From a virus, in the IMG/VR virus record IMGVR_UViG_3300035698_035310, positions 295,045-359,044 of that record: 64,000 nt of DNA; one strand, given 5' to 3'. The notes under the pieces are model-generated. The model did no database searches. It was given only the letters and a program-made list of their open reading frames with translations, and was not told where the DNA came from. Positions within the stretch are counted from its first letter, which is position 1. Every line of letters starts with the position of its first letter. A program made the position numbers and the translations under genes. This document shows positions 24,167-51,623 of this stretch, in pieces.

Positions 24167-25219
24167 ATGACAAAACCAAAAAACACAATACTTGAAATTA
24201 GTCGACAAGATCAAATGGGCGCACTATCGCCGTGGTTTGATAAACATCTTGATATTTGTATTGATGATGGATATTTCGGCAGTGAAAAACTTCTAACAGA
24301 TATAGGCAATCATATCATCGAAGATTTGATAGCATATCGCATACAAACCGGTATTAGCACAGTCATTCTTGGTATGAGTGGTGGCGTCGATAGCGCATTA
24401 ACCGCCGCATTATTTAAAAGAGCAGGGTGGAAAGTGATTGGGGTTACAATGCCCATACATCAAGACCCTGAAGAAACAACACGTGGCGTTGATGCATGTG
24501 AAGCACTAGGCATCGAACATAAACATATCGATTTAACCTCGCTGTATAACGATGCCACTACTTCATTGGGTGATTTGGATGGTTTATTAGACGATGCGAA
24601 CGAAACAAATAAAGCAGTTCTTATTCGCCGTGGCAACGTTAAAGCACGGTTGCGTATGATTACATTATACAACCTTGCTGCAATGCATGGTGGTTTGGTT
24701 GCAAGCACTGATAACTATTCCGAACTAGCCGCTGGCTTCTGGACATTGCATGGCGACGTGGGTGATTTAAGCCCCATACAAAGCCTTACTAAGTCTTGGG
24801 AAGTGCCAATGCTTGCAAAACTATTCGGCGTTCCTGAAGAAACGTGGCGTGCAAAACCAACCGATGGATTGGGGGTTGATGCTGGTGATGAAGCACAATT
24901 CGGATTCACTTATCTTGAACTCGACCTTATGCTGTTAGCGATTGGTGATTTTTCTGCTGATGGATATAAAGACGATGAAATGCAAGAATTGGGTGGTGTC
25001 AATCGTGAAAATTTATTCAAAGTTATGGACGGTGATATCGATAAAGATGGACGCGCCACAACCGTGTTTAATAAATTATTGGATAGAATGGGAAGTTCGT
25101 GGTTTAAGCGTCACGGAACTGTTAATATAAAGCACCCATATGATAGCAGCCGTTATAATAGATTGGAACGCGTCGATTATGATCAATTTGTTCCACAAGT
25201 TATAAAAAGGAGCAACTGA
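24167..25219 (+). CDS. nadE: NAD+ synthase, ammonia-dependent
   Basis: Amidates nicotinate adenine dinucleotide to NAD+ with ATP and ammonia, the last Preiss-Handler step. The PP-loop SGGVDS is at residues 71-76. GNVKARLRMITLYN and STDNYSELAAGFWTLHGDVGDLSPI follow in the right order for NadE. No glutaminase (nitrilase) domain is present, so free ammonia is the expected donor. The length of 350 is slightly above that of E. coli NadE, the extra being at the C-terminus. SD ggaggg. It overlaps no neighbour but is 1 nt from the next gene. Confidence 0.95.
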   Translation: MTKPKNTILEISRQDQMGALSPWFDKHLDICIDDGYFGSEKLLTDIGNHIIEDLIAYRIQTGISTVILGMSGGVDSALTAALFKRAGWKVIGVTMPIHQDPEETTRGVDACEALGIEHKHIDLTSLYNDATTSLGDLDGLLDDANETNKAVLIRRGNVKARLRMITLYNLAAMHGGLVASTDNYSELAAGFWTLHGDVGDLSPIQSLTKSWEVPMLAKLFGVPEETWRAKPTDGLGVDAGDEAQFGFTYLELDLMLLAIGDFSADGYKDDEMQELGGVNRENLFKVMDGDIDKDGRATTVFNKLLDRMGSSWFKRHGTVNIKHPYDSSRYNRLERVDYDQFVPQVIKRSN

Positions 25220-33480: not shown

Positions 33481-35160
33481 ATGGAAAACCTAAATGATTT
33501 AAAGTCGTGGCCTTTTGTTGAGGCGCGGCGTCTTGTAGAGCATACACAAGATAAGGAAGTGGTTGTTTTTTCCACTGGATATGGTCCGTCTGGTCCGCCA
33601 CACATTGGAACCTTTGGTGAAGTTGCACGAACTGTAATGGTTATGAATGCATTTCGACAATTATCCGATAAGCCAATGCGTCTTATTGTATTTTCAGATG
33701 ATATGGACGCTTTGCGTGCCATTCCAGAAAATGTACCCAATCCAGATAACATGCTTGATGATTTTATCGGCATTCCACTGTCTTGGATTCCTGATCCATA
33801 TGAAACACATGATAGTTATTCTGCACATAATAATGCAGCACTTTGTGATTTTTTAGATTTACACGGTTATGATTATGAATTTATAATGTCATCGGATTGC
33901 TATGAAGGTGGTGTATTTAATGAGACATTGCGATTATTTGCGTCACGAGTTGATGAGATCAGCAACATTATTACGCATGATTATGGTATCAATGGCGGAA
34001 ATCGTAAGGACACTTATTGTCCATTTCTTCCAATTAACACAATCGAGGGAACAGTTTTCGAGTTGGATGAATGGGAAATTATTGAGGTTGAAAATATGTC
34101 AATTGGTTCTTATGGAAATGGCGAGATTGCACCGTCGCCATTTCTTGCATTGCGATATACGAATGCAAGCGGTGGGGTAGGAATGTGCAATATTGATAAC
34201 GGCAAGGTTAAGCTGCAATGGAAGGCAGATTGGCCTATGCGATGGATTGCTCTAGGCATTGATTATGAAATGCATGGCAAGGATTTAATTGGGTCTGCGC
34301 AAGTTGGACAACGTATTTGCAAGTTGCTTGGTAAGAAGGCACCGCTTAACTATATGTATGAACTATTTTTAGATGAAGATGGTGAAAAGATTTCTAAGTC
34401 TAAGGGAAATGGATTGTCATTGACCGATTGGATGAGCTATAGCACCCCTGCGTCTGTGGCATATTATATGTTTCAGAACCCACGCAAGTCGCGTAAGTTG
34501 CACTTTGGTGTTATTCCGCAAATGACAGACGACTATTTGAAGATGTTGGATAAGTATATCCAAGAGCCAAGCATGGATAATCCAGTTTGGCATATCCATA
34601 ATGGCGATGTTCCTACGGTTGGTTCACCAGTAATGTTCAGCATGATTCTAAATTTGGTCAGCATTACTGATACCCAAGACCCATATGTATTGATTGAGTT
34701 CATTCGGAACTATGCGCATGGCGCTTCGTTCAAGAATCCAATTCTTCGTGATTTGATCAATGGTGCATTGAACTATTACACAACCGAAGTTCTTCCTAAG
34801 AAGACATATCGTGCTCCAACTGAAATGGAGCGTGTCGCACTTATTTCTTTACATGGGTCATTGCGTATGGTTCAAGCGCAACATAATGCTATGCTTGAAT
34901 TCATGAATACAAATATGGTAAAGATGGATGCCATCAATGAAGCAGGTGGCGAGAAGGCTGTATTGGAAGAAGCAATCACTTCGGTAACATATGAAGTAGG
35001 CAAGGTTCATTTCGGCGAAGAAAAGGATTCATTGCGAAAGTATTTCAAGAGTGTATATGAAATAATCATGGGTCAATCAAGTGGACCTAGATTGCCAGTA
35101 TTCATTGTGATGTTGGGCATTGATGAATTTTTGAGAATTTTAAAGGAAAAGATTCAATAA
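33481..35160 (+). CDS. lysS: Lysyl-tRNA synthetase, class I
   Basis: Charges tRNA-Lys. Class I features are plain: HIGT at residues 41-44 (HIGH equivalent) and KISKSKGN near 302-309 (KMSKS). YGPSGPP precedes the first and DMDALR follows it. The length of 559 covers the whole enzyme, including the helical C-terminal anticodon region. Class I LysRS occurs in archaea and in some bacteria, notably alphaproteobacteria, which suggests the host group. The start has no strong SD. A phage copy may bypass inhibition of host translation. Confidence 0.93.
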   Translation: MENLNDLKSWPFVEARRLVEHTQDKEVVVFSTGYGPSGPPHIGTFGEVARTVMVMNAFRQLSDKPMRLIVFSDDMDALRAIPENVPNPDNMLDDFIGIPLSWIPDPYETHDSYSAHNNAALCDFLDLHGYDYEFIMSSDCYEGGVFNETLRLFASRVDEISNIITHDYGINGGNRKDTYCPFLPINTIEGTVFELDEWEIIEVENMSIGSYGNGEIAPSPFLALRYTNASGGVGMCNIDNGKVKLQWKADWPMRWIALGIDYEMHGKDLIGSAQVGQRICKLLGKKAPLNYMYELFLDEDGEKISKSKGNGLSLTDWMSYSTPASVAYYMFQNPRKSRKLHFGVIPQMTDDYLKMLDKYIQEPSMDNPVWHIHNGDVPTVGSPVMFSMILNLVSITDTQDPYVLIEFIRNYAHGASFKNPILRDLINGALNYYTTEVLPKKTYRAPTEMERVALISLHGSLRMVQAQHNAMLEFMNTNMVKMDAINEAGGEKAVLEEAITSVTYEVGKVHFGEEKDSLRKYFKSVYEIIMGQSSGPRLPVFIVMLGIDEFLRILKEKIQ

Positions 35161-35682: not shown

Positions 35683-36333
35683 ATGGCAAAAACAGAGTTA
35701 AGACGAAAACATCCATATTTTGGAAAGTTTAAATTCAAAATAAATGTATATAATAAAGATTGGGTTAAAGATTATAAATTGGCATATCCTACTTTTTTAA
35801 CTGATATTACAGATATAGAAAAAGAACAATACATAAAAGTAAAAGATTATTTAACTAAATATTGGAAAGTCGAAAAAGATTTTAGATGGAATGATAATTG
35901 GAATGTGTATTTAAGAGATGCTGATGTATATGATCATGTTCTATCAAGATTTCCGACGTTTTTATCAAAAGTTATTAGACCAGCACCAGGTTATGAGGAT
36001 TTAGAAGGAAGGGGGGCGCTTAATGAACATATATTATGGTATGGAAAATTTTCATATAAAATATCATTGAGAAATGTCGATAGCACAACAAATCATTTAT
36101 ATAAAAAATGGTGTATGGAAAATTTAGAAAGCGATATAAAATACTCAACCGGTTATAGTGATACAAGTTTTTATTTTATGAATTCATTTGACGCGATGGC
36201 ATTTAAATTAAGATTTGGTGATTATGTTAAAGATACGTTTATTGCCGATAAAGACGAAGCTGCTATACAATTAAGAAATCGAATGGATCAAGCTATTCAA
36301 GAATATAACAACTACATGGAAGGTGAATCATGA
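35683..36333 (+). CDS. Hypothetical protein, two-copy DAMAFKL family
   Basis: 216 residues. It appears to contain two related halves: [12 protein letters not shown]...[16 protein letters not shown] and [12 protein letters not shown]...[17 protein letters not shown]. The second half matches the protein at 21034. Many Tyr and Lys. It overlaps the prs start as ATGA. No known activity. Confidence 0.65.
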
Positions 36334-37292
36334 CAAAACACAATAAAAATGAAATAATTTTAATATCTGGAAATAGCAACAGACCACTATCCGAAGAAAT
36401 ATCGGATATACTTGATATCCCATTATCAAAAGTTGAAATATCTTCATTTTCGGATGAAGAAACTAAAATAGAAATAAGTGACAATGTGCGTGGTGAAGAT
36501 GTATATGTTATACAACCAACATCACAACCGGCGAACCAAAACCTAATGGAACTACTAATCACCATAGATGCCCTTAAGCGTTCATCTGCGCGGCGTATAA
36601 CGGCTGTAATACCATATTATGGATATGCACGCCAAGATGCAAAACCAGCCCCCAGAACACCAATAACGGCAAAATTGGTAGCCGATTTGATTACTACTGC
36701 TGGTGCTGACAGAGTTCTAACGATGGATTTTCACTCACGCCAAGCACAAGGGTTTTTTAATATTCCAACAGATAACCTTTTCGCACAACCATTTTTCGTC
36801 ACGGACATTAAAAAACAATTCAAAAAATTAGATAATGTTATTATCGTATCACCAGATGTTGGTGGCGTGGTCAGAGCAAGAGCGCTTGCTAAGAAAATAA
36901 ATGCCGATCTTGCCATTATCGACAAGCGTCGTGAAAAAGCAAACGTTAGTGAAGTTATGAATATCATTGGCGATATAGACGGTCATGATTGTATCATTAT
37001 TGACGATATGGTAGATACCGCAGGAACATTATGCAATGCTGCTGATGCGTTGATAGAAAAGGGCGCTAAATCAGTTCACGCATATGCAACACATGGCGTA
37101 TTGAGTGGACCGGCAACTGAAAGACTTAACGCATCAGAATCATTATCATCTTTAACTATCACAAATAGCGTACAATATCCATACAATGGCGAAGCATCCG
37201 ATAAAGTTAGAATAGTATCCATTGCTCCATTGCTTGCAAGGGCGATAAGTAGAATAGCCAAAGAATCTTCAGTTAGTGAGTTATTTGAATAA
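36330..37292 (+). CDS. prs: Ribose-phosphate pyrophosphokinase (PRPP synthetase)
   Basis: Makes PRPP from ribose 5-phosphate and ATP. Full length at 320 residues. Typical motifs in order are [59 protein letters not shown] and the PRPP loop [11 protein letters not shown] near residues 222-232. PRPP is a substrate of the PncB encoded at 21491 and of nucleotide synthesis. It may therefore serve the phage NAD route as well as DNA precursor supply. Confidence 0.95.
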
Positions 37293-37305: not shown

Positions 37306-38358
37306 ATGAAACAATTATTAATAAGTATGTTTATAATTTTTTTGACGATAGGAACAGCAAACGCGGATTATATATTTGTTGTCCCACAAAAACCCGGTGC
37401 AGGGACGTCGCAGTGGGCACAAATAGTAGCCAAAGAATTAGAAAAATATTTAGGTGAAAAAATAAAAATAAAACATATTCCTGGTGCTCGTGATCGTGCT
37501 GGATTTAAAAAATTTCACGATACATTAAGGTTTGATGATAAGACAGTTATGGTATCGCATGGCGGTAACGCAATTAGTTATCTAACTGAACCAGTTGGAT
37601 ACGATTATAAAGAATATGATTCTATTGCAATCATGAATTTTAATATCGCGGTAGCGCATCGTTCAGATTTGGATTGGCGGGGTAATGATAAAGTGTCGTT
37701 TGCTGCTGGTTCGGGTATGGTTCCAGAGGCACTTGCTATAGCGATGCTATTATGTGGCGCAGATGCACCCGCGTGTTGGAATGACCGTGTGATATGGGTT
37801 CGCGGTATGTCGGGTTCCGAACGTCGGTTGGCATTTCGACGTGGTGAAATTTCAGGAACAAGAGAGAATGTTGCTGCTTATAAAAAACATGTAGTCCCCA
37901 TTGTAAAATCTGGTGATGCAAAGCATTGGTTCAATCATGGTATGTTGAATCCTGCTACGGGTGAATTTGGTGCAGATACCAATCTTTCTTTTCCGCACAT
38001 GGAAGCATTGTATGAAGAACTATGGGGTGAAAAACCATCTGGTGGTTTTTATGATGCGTATAAGTTAGCCAAGGCTTGGAGAGATAGTGTTCAAAAAGCG
38101 TTGTGGGTTAATAAAGGAAATCCTAATCGTGATATATTAGTGCAAGCAGTTAACGATATGTTGAATGATCCTGCATCTATGGCGAACCTTCATAAAAAAA
38201 TGGGTTCTTATCCATGGAGAGTTGGTGATGCAGGGAATGATTTTATGGACGTTTTATACAACATGATTTCAAGCGACGCACTTAAAACATTAGTCGATTT
38301 TGAAAAAGATGTATTAAGGTTGGATGCTGTGTTTAATGAGAAACGTGTAGAGAAATAA
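37306..38358 (+). CDS. TctC-like periplasmic solute-binding protein (Bug family)
   Basis: 350 residues with a signal peptide (about 1-20, MKQLLISMFIIFLTIGTANA). FVVPQKPGAGTSQWAQIVAKELEKYLG then IKHIPGARDRAGF match the start of tripartite tricarboxylate transporter receptors. These bind carboxylates such as citrate or other organic acids in the periplasm. The matching permease TctA is encoded convergently just downstream. SD aagga. In a phage this implies reprogramming of nutrient uptake. No typical TctB is visible. Confidence 0.85.
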   Translation: MKQLLISMFIIFLTIGTANADYIFVVPQKPGAGTSQWAQIVAKELEKYLGEKIKIKHIPGARDRAGFKKFHDTLRFDDKTVMVSHGGNAISYLTEPVGYDYKEYDSIAIMNFNIAVAHRSDLDWRGNDKVSFAAGSGMVPEALAIAMLLCGADAPACWNDRVIWVRGMSGSERRLAFRRGEISGTRENVAAYKKHVVPIVKSGDAKHWFNHGMLNPATGEFGADTNLSFPHMEALYEELWGEKPSGGFYDAYKLAKAWRDSVQKALWVNKGNPNRDILVQAVNDMLNDPASMANLHKKMGSYPWRVGDAGNDFMDVLYNMISSDALKTLVDFEKDVLRLDAVFNEKRVEK

Positions 38359-38369
38359 TATCATACGTA

Positions 38370-39809
38370 TTATGAATATTCTAACCGATTTTTATTCTTG
38401 ATGCCTATATACAAAATAACTATTGCCATAATTGCAATACCTATAAACATCGGTCTACCAAGAAGCATATCCAAAGTATATAACGACGACATTTGATAAC
38501 TTAAATTTACTATTTTATCGGATAATATAAAACCTATTAACAATGATGGTCGACTAAAATTAAACTTTTTAGCGAGTAACCCAACCACCGAAAAACCACA
38601 TAACATAATGATATCTTCCCATCCACCAGTATACTGTAATGTTGCCCACATAATAATAATTATAAGAAATGGAAAATAATATTTATATGGGACATATGCA
38701 ATATAAGTTATATATTTCACTGCCCACAAACAAATCAATCCTGTGATTAATGTTCCTAAAATGAATCCTAAACTCATCATTCCAAAAAACATCGAATCTG
38801 CTGCTAGAGCCAATGTTCCCATTTCAAAATTCAAATACATAAACAACGCCATAAGTATCGCAGCGAATGGCGCACCGGGAATTCCAAATAAAACAGTCGG
38901 AATAAATGATGACGCTTTTTGTGCATTATTTGCACCCTCGCATCCGATCACGCCTTTGATATTTCCATCACCAAATTTTTCATTGGGGTTACTAGCTACT
39001 GCTTGACCATATGCTAACCAATCCGCAACCGCGCCACCCAAACCCGGAAGAATGCCAATAAATGAACCAATGATTCCACCTTTGGCACCCAATTTCCATT
39101 CCTTGAAAGCAATTTTTATGCCATCAATTCTTTGTTGTGTGTGATCAATTTTGTTGTCTTTAATAGCGGTATATTTTGACTTCAGACCAGCAAGCAGTTC
39201 TGGTATTGCAAATAAACCTGCTACTACCGGAATTATTTGTATTCCATCCTCTAAATACGCCCAACCAAACGTAAATAATGGCGATGCATTGGCATCCAAT
39301 CCTATAACTCCAAACCACACTCCAATGGATAACGCAATCAATGATCTGAGCCAATACTTAGATGAAATAAAACTAACAGTAAAAAATGCTAAAATTGTAA
39401 ATGCCCATAGTTCTGGAATACCTAAAATTAAAATTATTTTTGCATAATATGGCATCAATAGGAACGCCATACAGCCCCATACAAGCCCGTTTATAGTGCT
39501 GGTAACGATTGCTGCCGATAATGCATAAGTAGCCTTCCCTTGGCGTGCTAATGGAAATCCATCCACCATTGTAGCGGCGGCAGAGTTTGCCCCAGGTATT
39601 CCCAATAAAACAGACGTGAAGGTATCACCAATTGTAGATGATGCCACAACCGCGACGCAAAAAAGAACACCAAGATATGGATTTGCTGCGAATATATGTA
39701 TAAACGAAAAAACTGCAACCAAGCCTGTTGTTGCGCCAACAGACGGAATAATACCAATAACCAATCCATAGGCTATACCCATTAACAATGTAATAATTAT
39801 TTCAATCAT
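38370..39809 (-). CDS. TctA-like tripartite tricarboxylate transporter permease
   Basis: Large membrane subunit, 479 residues with about 10-12 transmembrane segments. The family-specific sequences near residue 20 (GIIPSVGATTG), DTFTSVLLGIPGANSAAATMVDGFPLARQGKA, then ILPGLGGAVADWLAYGQA and FGIPGAPFAAILMALFMY are all present. The start at 39809 (MIEIIITLLMG) follows a weak SD and is better than the longer frame from 39881. It is convergent with TctC, 11 nt apart. The small TctB subunit is not visible nearby; the phage may use the host one. Confidence 0.93.
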   Translation of the reverse strand: MIEIIITLLMGIAYGLVIGIIPSVGATTGLVAVFSFIHIFAANPYLGVLFCVAVVASSTIGDTFTSVLLGIPGANSAAATMVDGFPLARQGKATYALSAAIVTSTINGLVWGCMAFLLMPYYAKIILILGIPELWAFTILAFFTVSFISSKYWLRSLIALSIGVWFGVIGLDANASPLFTFGWAYLEDGIQIIPVVAGLFAIPELLAGLKSKYTAIKDNKIDHTQQRIDGIKIAFKEWKLGAKGGIIGSFIGILPGLGGAVADWLAYGQAVASNPNEKFGDGNIKGVIGCEGANNAQKASSFIPTVLFGIPGAPFAAILMALFMYLNFEMGTLALAADSMFFGMMSLGFILGTLITGLICLWAVKYITYIAYVPYKYYFPFLIIIIMWATLQYTGGWEDIIMLCGFSVVGLLAKKFNFSRPSLLIGFILSDKIVNLSYQMSSLYTLDMLLGRPMFIGIAIMAIVILYIGIKNKNRLEYS

Positions 39810-39883
39810 ATATTTTCCAATAATAAATAAATCTATAGATTTATTTATATTATACAAAAAATAAAAAATAATAGGCTGCAAAC

Positions 39884-40651
39884 ATGATTAAAAACCGAAA
39901 AATTTACAATAACTTAGTCGAAAAAATAACTGAATATTTCGGAACCAAATGGTTAAACGAAAACAATATCACCATGACGCATACCACCAAATTCAATAAA
40001 GATTTAAATTTTGATATATTAAATGAAGTAGCAATAACATCATATGTGGAAGAGACATTTAATATAGTATTGCCGCATAACCAAAACAAATGGTTTGAAA
40101 CGATGAATGACATGGTTGATTATATAAGTGATATCATAATCACGCGACACTTTGAAGACGTATGGCAACCAAATATAATACATTTTCAGCACAGTGGCGA
40201 TAATTTGATAGAAACGATCAATGATGATGCGCCAAATAAAGTCCTCGATGTTGGATGTGGGACCAATTACTTCAAAGGAAAAATACATAATCTTTTGGGC
40301 ATTGATCCAATTCGAACTGAAGCCGATATTACTACAACCATATTAGATTATGAAACAACAGAAACATATGATGTGATATTAATACTTGGCAGTATAAATT
40401 TCGGTTCAGAAGAGTATATACTGCAACAATTGAAGAAAGTGATTTCTCTTTTATCCGACGATGGAAAAATATATGCACGGGTTAATCCCGGCATAGAAGA
40501 TTCAGAAAGCCCATGGATGGATTTTTTCGAATGGAATGAAGCATTGATTGCCAAATATGCAAATGATTTCGATTTGACTATATCTACTGATATACAAAAA
40601 GATTATAACGGAAGATTGATGTTTGTGTATAGTAAGAAAAAAATACAATGA
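39884..40651 (+). CDS. Fusion: ACP-like domain + SAM-dependent methyltransferase
   Basis: 255 residues. Residues about 30-85 look like an acyl carrier protein (FNKDLNFDILNEVAITSYVEETFNIVLP then TMNDMVDYI). The DSL phosphopantetheine site, however, is replaced by D-I-L, so no serine is available. From residue about 110 a class I methyltransferase follows (NKVLDVGCGTNYF, ILILGSINFGSEEYI). The start is divergent from tctA by 74 nt. Overlap with the next gene is ATGA. Substrate unknown. Confidence 0.75.
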   Translation: MIKNRKIYNNLVEKITEYFGTKWLNENNITMTHTTKFNKDLNFDILNEVAITSYVEETFNIVLPHNQNKWFETMNDMVDYISDIIITRHFEDVWQPNIIHFQHSGDNLIETINDDAPNKVLDVGCGTNYFKGKIHNLLGIDPIRTEADITTTILDYETTETYDVILILGSINFGSEEYILQQLKKVISLLSDDGKIYARVNPGIEDSESPWMDFFEWNEALIAKYANDFDLTISTDIQKDYNGRLMFVYSKKKIQ

Positions 40652-41241
40652 AAAATTGGATATTTTTTACTGGAGTTCCCGGATCAAGATGGAGTGGTGT
40701 AGCAAAGACTTTATGCGAAGCACCAATTGTTAATAATTCAGACCGCAACGAAACTAGAACTTATAATGATATGCACCAAGGAAATTATTTTGGGCCGAAT
40801 ATGGAGCATGGAAAATTATTTGAACAACTGAATAAATTGCCATCATCTATTATCAATGCAGAATTAGAATCCCCATTCGAAGAGAAAAATGACACACAAC
40901 TACGATTTTTAAAAAGTCATACATTTGCTTATCATTTGGATTTTATAAAAACACAATACCCAACCAGTAAAATAATGATGGTATATCGCGATGACGAAAC
41001 GGCATTGAAATGGTGGTTGGACGCTGGTGGTTTTAATATAACCTATCCAAAATATGATTGGTACAAAGATGAAAAAACGATGTTTGAACGAATAAAATTA
41101 GAAAACAATAATATATTAACGTTTTGTAAAAAACATAATACAGAGTTGGTTCCATTCACTGATGTGTGGATAAAACAAAATTTCGATTGGGATATGGAAG
41201 TAGATACTTATTTCGACGACATAACGGTAGCAATCATATAA
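40648..41241 (+). CDS. Sulfotransferase-like P-loop protein
   Basis: 197 residues. The N-terminal FFTGVPGSRWSG (residues 6-17) resembles the PAPS-binding P-loop of sulfotransferases. MMVYRDDETALKWW near residue 110 resembles the 3'-phosphate binding block. The overall size is small. Coupled to the preceding methyltransferase gene by ATGA, so both may act on the same metabolite or surface group. Real sulfotransferase activity is not certain. Confidence 0.65.
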   Translation: MKNWIFFTGVPGSRWSGVAKTLCEAPIVNNSDRNETRTYNDMHQGNYFGPNMEHGKLFEQLNKLPSSIINAELESPFEEKNDTQLRFLKSHTFAYHLDFIKTQYPTSKIMMVYRDDETALKWWLDAGGFNITYPKYDWYKDEKTMFERIKLENNNILTFCKKHNTELVPFTDVWIKQNFDWDMEVDTYFDDITVAII

Positions 41242-46073: not shown

Positions 46074-46103
46074 TTGACAATTTAACCAAAATAGCAGTAG
46101 AAT
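46074..46103 (+). promoter_or_regulatory. Possible promoter overlapping terminator
   Basis: TTGACA at 46074-46079, an 18-nt spacer and TAGAAT at 46098-46103. The -10 lies in the terminator stem, so usage is uncertain. Confidence 0.35.
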
Positions 46104-46124
46104 GCAAGTTCTATTGCTATTTTT
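46088..46124 (+). terminator. Rho-independent terminator after HNH gene
   Basis: AAATAGCAGTAGAA pairs with TTCTATTGCTATTT (one G-T pair) over a 6-nt loop, ending in TTTTT. Confidence 0.8.
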
Positions 46125-46226
46125 CGTCGTATAATAGGATTATGTTCATAAAACAATGCATATAAACCTATTAAGTCCGTATTTAATAAATAGTAATATC
46201 CGGTTTTTATTAAAAGGAAAACAAAT

Positions 46227-46580
46227 ATGACTGAAGAAACAAACACTGCACAAGAACCAATGGCAAGACCTGAATCTATGAATGTAGGAGATTTGCAATT
46301 ACTAACTAAATTAGTTGATGCTGGCTCCGAACGTGGAGCGTGGAAAGGTGAAGAATTGTCAGTAATTGGTGCGGTAAGAACTAAAATGATTGCGAATATA
46401 CAATACGCAACACCTACACCAATTGCTCCCACTGAAGAGACTACAACTACAACAAAAACAATTGAGCGCGATGAAAACGATTTGATTAAAACAATCACTG
46501 AAACAAAAACGCCGTCGAAACAAACTAAAGCAAAAGCTAAACCAAAACGCAAGCGTGCTGCTAAACCAACTGCTGCGTAA
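46227..46580 (+). CDS. Hypothetical protein with basic tail
   Basis: 117 residues. The N-terminal 60 residues form an acidic helix pair (VGDLQLLTKLVDAGSERGAWKGEELSVIG). A Thr-rich linker follows. The last 20 residues are Lys/Arg/Ala/Pro-rich, like a histone tail. SD aaggaaa. Function unknown. It lies 20 nt before the next gene. Confidence 0.65.
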   Translation: MTEETNTAQEPMARPESMNVGDLQLLTKLVDAGSERGAWKGEELSVIGAVRTKMIANIQYATPTPIAPTEETTTTTKTIERDENDLIKTITETKTPSKQTKAKAKPKRKRAAKPTAA

Positions 46581-46600
46581 ATAGACAAGAGGTATAACAA

Positions 46601-50909: not shown

Positions 50910-51623
50910 ATGACAAATACTACAAAGTTATTAATGATACATGTATTAGCGCACATAATGCTAATACCAATGTTTTTATATGGCGAAATGTGGATGTTTA
51001 TTGCGGCGTTTTTTTGGTGGCAGTTTATAGCAGCATCCTCTATTACTTCTGGATATCATAGATATTTTTCACATAAAAATTTTAAAACTGGAAAATGGTA
51101 TGAGTGGTATAGTCAGTATTTGGGTATATTTTCTAATGCTGGACCTGTTCTTACATGGGCATCGGTTCATAGAATGCATCATGCCAATAGCGACAATGAA
51201 CTCGACCCACATAGCCCAAAACATAAAGGATTTTGGTATGCATTTTTTAATTTGTGGGGATATGATGTTCATATACCAAGAAAATATCTAAAAGGTTTGA
51301 TACAAAACAAAAGTGTCAGAGTTTTTCACAAATATTATTTTTTAATCGTCGCAGCAACTATTATGATGTTGGGTATAATTAATTTTAATTTGTTATTATT
51401 TGGTTTTTTCTTTCCTGTTATATGTGGATTTTGGGGTTTTGGTATGGTTAATGCGTACACACATAGAAAAGGTTATGCTACAAATAGTGCACTTGCTAAT
51501 ATATTAACTGCTGGTGAAGGATGGCATTTAAACCACCACAACGATGGTAGCAATTGGCGTATCGGAAAGAAATGGTGGGAAATAGATACAGGAGCATGGT
51601 TTATATGGGCAATAAAGTATTAA
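50910..51623 (+). CDS. Fatty acid / acyl-CoA desaturase
   Basis: Membrane di-iron desaturase, 237 residues with about four membrane spans. Histidine boxes are HRYFSH (near residue 50), HRMHH (near 88) and HLNHH (near 212), in the right order. GYHRYFSH and EGWHLNHHNDGSNWRIG are typical of delta-9 type enzymes. It could alter host membrane lipids or an acyl group of the island product. It overlaps the next gene by 19 nt. Confidence 0.93.
   Translation: MTNTTKLLMIHVLAHIMLIPMFLYGEMWMFIAAFFWWQFIAASSITSGYHRYFSHKNFKTGKWYEWYSQYLGIFSNAGPVLTWASVHRMHHANSDNELDPHSPKHKGFWYAFFNLWGYDVHIPRKYLKGLIQNKSVRVFHKYYFLIVAATIMMLGIINFNLLLFGFFFPVICGFWGFGMVNAYTHRKGYATNSALANILTAGEGWHLNHHNDGSNWRIGKKWWEIDTGAWFIWAIKY

Follow-up and report, generated by a model that had tools for sequence, protein, structure and literature searches.

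Most of what is known about nutrient-uptake genes in phages concerns phosphate. The cyanophage pstS gene encodes a phosphate solute-binding protein (SBP) (PMC2984593), a periplasmic protein that is thought to boost nutrient uptake in infected cells, with the ABC-type partner coming from the host and no phage permease. With respect to carboxylates, the closest described system is the tripartite tricarboxylate transporter (TTT) TctABC (TC 2.A.80), encoded in the order tctCBA in the Salmonella type system. Among viruses, tctA has been named a putative auxiliary gene in virus contigs of the uncultured marine bacterium SUP05, as a 'protein domain hit only' of unknown role (PMC4164917), a report that is repeated in a review (PMC6359870); the text found on the SUP05 contigs makes no mention of an SBP, a missing TctB or sulfotransferase and methyltransferase partners.

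The locus described here lies in a 64 kb window (the whole stretch of DNA that was analysed), which comprises the last 64 kb (positions 295045-359044) of a 359,044-base virus record. The relevant features are as follows.

37306-38358, plus strand: exported SBP of 350 aa, predicted from profile and fold comparison to be a divergent member of the TctC/Bug family
38370-39809, minus strand: TctA permease of 479 aa (PF01970, 12 hydrophobic peaks), its gene converging on that of the SBP
39842-39849, minus strand: TATAAATA, an octamer resembling a T4 late promoter, 40 bp upstream of the start codon of tctA; a weak lead
39884-40651, plus strand: class I SAM methyltransferase-like protein with the motif VLDVGCG and a degenerate acyl-carrier-like N-terminal region, from alignment
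40648-41241, plus strand: small predicted sulfotransferase-fold protein with a PGSxWS P-loop, overlapping the methyltransferase-like gene

The phage pair resembles TctABC in that a full-length member of the TctA family and an SBP of the TctC/Bug fold are encoded together. It differs in the lack of a detected TctB, in the divergence of the SBP, which is beyond the reach of the Pfam TctC model, in the gene order (tctA-SBP in most viruses, convergent in the window) and in the adjacency of sulfotransferase-fold and methyltransferase genes.

The first-pass annotation described a complete SBP with a signal peptide and a complete permease, and both descriptions hold. In the window translation, the SBP frame runs from the ATG at 37306 to the stop at 38358 and starts with the hydrophobic leader MKQLLISMFIIFLTIGTANA, ending in TANA and followed by DY; residues A20 and D21 are invariant in the alignment of 26 relatives. 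On its own, the window SBP matches nothing in Pfam (including PF03401), PHROGs or NCBIfam. A profile built from the 26 viral relatives, in contrast, retrieves BugD (E=1.1e-6) followed by other TctC chains, and the AlphaFold2 model (pLDDT 92) yields 17 top Foldseek matches that all belong to the TctC/Bug family (BugD, MatC, TphC, Bug27, AdpC and their kin). By family profile and predicted fold, the window SBP can thus be assigned to this family as a divergent member, with ligand loops that differ from those of BugD (GTSxW in the viral SBP, PTDNV in BugD). The tctA frame, on the minus strand, is complete as well, with its ATG at 39809 and its stop codon at 38370; its product matches PF01970 over positions 2-422 of 423 (E=3.3e-91), and the 12 peaks of hydrophobicity correspond to 12 predicted helices. 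TTT permeases carry a duplicated G-rich motif in TM1 and TM7. A putative TM1 copy, GIAYGLVIGIIPSVG, recovered by a script search, contains Ser in place of Gly; a putative TM7 copy, GGIIGSFIGILPGLGG, went unreported by the script's one-pattern search and is visible in the translation.

Homologues of both proteins are alignable from end to end, with 37-55% identity for the SBP and 44-60% for TctA, and the viral families evolve under purifying selection, with median dN/dS of 0.064 for TctA and 0.066 for the SBP. End-to-end conservation combined with a dN/dS of about 0.065 excludes chance open reading frames, and pseudogenes were rejected given the complete frames and the same dN/dS values. As reported in the first pass, the two genes are on opposite strands and converge, with 11 bp between them, so that transcription of tctA must be independent of that of the SBP gene. 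The TATAAATA octamer is not enriched across the window (17 found vs 14 expected), and scans for sigma-70 promoters and terminators gave results at the chance level only.

Host contamination of the assembly, raised in the first pass as a potential refutation, was considered and rejected. Genes for a DNA polymerase, an exonuclease and a virion structural protein are located upstream of the pair, PHROGs matches on either side of it include two RNA ligases and a kinase-phosphatase, the GC and GC3 of the pair resemble those of the neighbouring genes, and TctA homologues also occur elsewhere among large viruses, in records of 230 and 316 kb. Being located in a phage genome and showing clear homology to genes of cellular metabolism, the pair qualifies as auxiliary metabolic genes. 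Several other genes in the window are worth recording: a class I lysyl-tRNA synthetase (33481-35160, plus strand; PF01921 E=1e-102, no PHROGs match), which is unusual in a phage; a PRPP synthetase (36330-37292), whose gene immediately precedes that of the SBP, and an NAD synthetase (24167-25219), both possibly serving NAD or nucleotide supply; and a fatty-acid-desaturase-like protein (50910-51623, plus strand) with the sequence HRYFSHKNF.

The view that such a pair is rare in phages stands for deposited genomes only. Among 50,697 deposited phage records, there is no SBP of this kind and there are seven weak TctA matches (26-30% identity), mostly in unannotated faecal fragments and in records labelled Salmonella or E. 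coli phage. In uncultured viruses, however, the pair is common: the SBP was found at 68 loci and TctA relatives on 460 contigs, the best 80 of which show 57-60% identity to the window TctA, and the loci that were read include 152 distinct viral loci with both genes. The SBP accompanies TctA in all 80 TctA-first viral loci. TctA is upstream of the SBP on the same strand at 204 loci, the two genes being mostly adjacent, and the SBP comes first in a few viral loci; among the loci read, the window phage alone has the convergent arrangement. Convergence is therefore an exception and not a typical feature of the pair, and the opposite strand of tctA in the window phage is most simply explained by an inversion. 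In two loci (L051 and L052), a porin-like outer-membrane protein is encoded between TctA and the SBP (L052:4129-4686; Porin_4 E=1.1e-9).

Close cellular relatives of the SBP are few. A peptide-pattern scan of 84,980 genomes identified two, one among 274 Gammaproteobacteria and the other among 285 Omnitrophota. The contig of marine bacterium B5-7, a gammaproteobacterial metagenome-assembled genome (MAG), carries ordinary bacterial genes and all four genes together (TctA, SBP, methyltransferase and sulfotransferase-fold protein). On the Omnitrophota MAG contig, TctA and the SBP are flanked by other methyltransferase genes, and there is no sulfotransferase of the window's family at that locus. 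Phylogenetic analysis had been proposed as a route to the donor; in the TctA tree, the window protein groups with the Omnitrophota protein (95/84), the surrounding clade is almost wholly viral, and no recent donor was identified. The next cellular TctAs, found by sampling 398 genomes from the phylum of B5-7, share 31-35% identity with the window protein and are mostly 640-700 aa long. These belong to tricarballylate-type clusters (e.g., L083 and L332), the nearest cellular homologues with known context, in which the SBPs show 25-28% identity; the clusters differ from the phage pair in the C-terminal extension of most of the cellular TctAs, in having the SBP gene first and in the adjacent catabolic genes. 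Among nine such cellular TctA loci read, eight encode a homologue of 4-oxalomesaconate tautomerase and four encode homologues of TcuA and TcuB; through this distant kinship, these neighbours point to di- or tricarboxylates as the likely substrate class.

A conserved group including the sulfotransferase-fold and methyltransferase genes was missed in the first-pass annotation. All four genes are present in 64 of the 80 TctA-first viral loci and all are under purifying selection. The 163 four-gene loci, which include contigs counted twice (120 are distinct by SBP sequence), have a median span of 4.2 kb, with 161 of them within 6 kb; the span in the window is 3.9 kb. The methyltransferase-like protein shows weak Pfam matches to PP-binding_2 (E=0.017) and Methyltransf_23 (E=0.033) and matches a PHROG of acyl carrier proteins (E=8.6e-5); in its acyl-carrier-like N-terminus, the usual serine appears to be replaced (FDIL for DSL). 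For the 40648-41241 product, modelled with AlphaFold2 (pLDDT 88), the best VIA-align fit is to tyrosylprotein sulfotransferase-1 (Z 11.6, 166 residues, whole-length); the top 13 rows are all sulfotransferases, with nucleotide kinases appearing from Z 8.6 down, and 9 of 26 relatives show weak matches to PF13469. The model thus predicts a sulfotransferase fold over the whole protein.

This partner pair is commoner than the transporter: 59 of 80 sulfotransferase-first loci are without TctA and the window-type SBP. Another SBP is present in 25 of 61 sulfotransferase-first loci without TctA or the window-type SBP; a search with a single one of these identified it as a canonical TctC (PF03401 E=1.5e-24). 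Such canonical TctC-type SBPs are found next to these partner genes in TctA-less phages (e.g., L123:8638-9606), including records of 212-354 kb; four large virus records encode TctC without any TctA, like an SBP that needs a host permease. A weakly ferritin/AurF-like protein and a class I glutamine amidotransferase (L125:4396-5091, L112:9580-10122) also recur beside the partner pair and are reminiscent of a small-molecule pathway.

The phage pair probably functions as a TctB-less, two-part TTT-type importer that supplies the infected cell with di- or tricarboxylates. The analysis shows two intact genes of the expected families that are inherited together and that purifying selection maintains in many phages. 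From what is known of these families, the SBP would be exported to the periplasm, bind a small carboxylate and pass it to the phage TctA in the inner membrane; TctA, with no TctB from the phage, would then import the carboxylate by ion symport, and the infected cell would gain an additional source of carbon or energy. The porin-like protein encoded between TctA and the SBP in two loci fits an uptake route, and we count it, along with the canonical TctC beside the same partners in TctA-less phages, in favour of the importer.

One argument against the importer is the missing subunit. The absence of TctB noted in the first pass extends to the entire 359-kb record, where PF07331 is unmatched at E<=1, subject to the poor sequence conservation of the TctB family and the possible incompleteness of the record, and no small multi-helix protein is encoded beside the pair in the window or in its relatives. 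The sole 4-helix open reading frame in the window (46082-46600, minus strand) was considered as a cryptic TctB and rejected, as it resembles an antisense chance frame. A 76-aa DUF6552 (PF20189) membrane protein, which recurs in the same viral module (L134:8567-8797 and relatives) and might be a small transporter subunit, was rejected as well, being missing from the 359-kb record. In Comamonas, where the TctB-type subunit has been studied, both TpiB and TpiA are essential (PMC5812351); hence, either this family does without TctB, or it uses that of the host, or the phage encodes a subunit that went undetected. Two further points count against the importer: the kinship that suggests the substrate is distant and the ligand loops of the SBP differ from those of BugD, and a plain carbon-uptake pair would need no sulfotransferase-fold or methyltransferase neighbours.

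These neighbours suggest an alternative that we regard as rather unlikely, namely, that all four genes act in a single biochemical system, in which an imported carboxylate or related organic acid is modified by the methyltransferase and the sulfotransferase or feeds a phage small molecule or surface modification. The tight clustering of the four genes in viral loci, their joint presence on the bacterial-looking contig of B5-7 and the acyl-carrier-like N-terminus of the window methyltransferase would fit such a system, whereas the frequency of the sulfotransferase-methyltransferase pair without TctA or the window-type SBP (59 of the 80 sulfotransferase-first loci) and the Omnitrophota transporter, with its other methyltransferases and without this sulfotransferase, argue against it. 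A broader formulation, in which the methyltransferase, the sulfotransferase-fold protein, a TctC-type SBP and often TctA make up a single, undescribed, widespread phage system that imports and modifies or uses an organic acid, is a tentative possibility. It is improbable that the genes merely share a hotspot, as independent auxiliary cargo gathered where large phages vary, with the transporter working alone: in many loci the region is indeed flanked by conserved core genes of the phage and its cargo is varied, but the four genes stay together in differing surroundings (beside prs and RNA ligase in the window phage, on T4-like contigs and on the bacterial MAG contig). A non-transport role, in which the SBP or TctA alters the cell envelope, e.g., in superinfection exclusion or signalling, might account for the orphan TctC-type SBPs of TctA-less phages and would accord with possible signalling roles of TctC proteins noted in a review (PMC5812351), but is very hard to credit given that the SBP is almost never separated from TctA where TctA is present and that the permease motifs are under strong selection.

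In the open literature searched, which excludes most subscription papers, neither the TctA-SBP pair nor its sulfotransferase and methyltransferase partners are reported; judging by its spread, the pair may belong to a widespread viral module for nutrient uptake of which there is hardly any earlier description. If the importer reading is true, a carbon-acid importer is conserved in many uncultured phages and would let infected cells scavenge organic acids, and a TTT system devoid of TctB would test whether TctB is needed at all.
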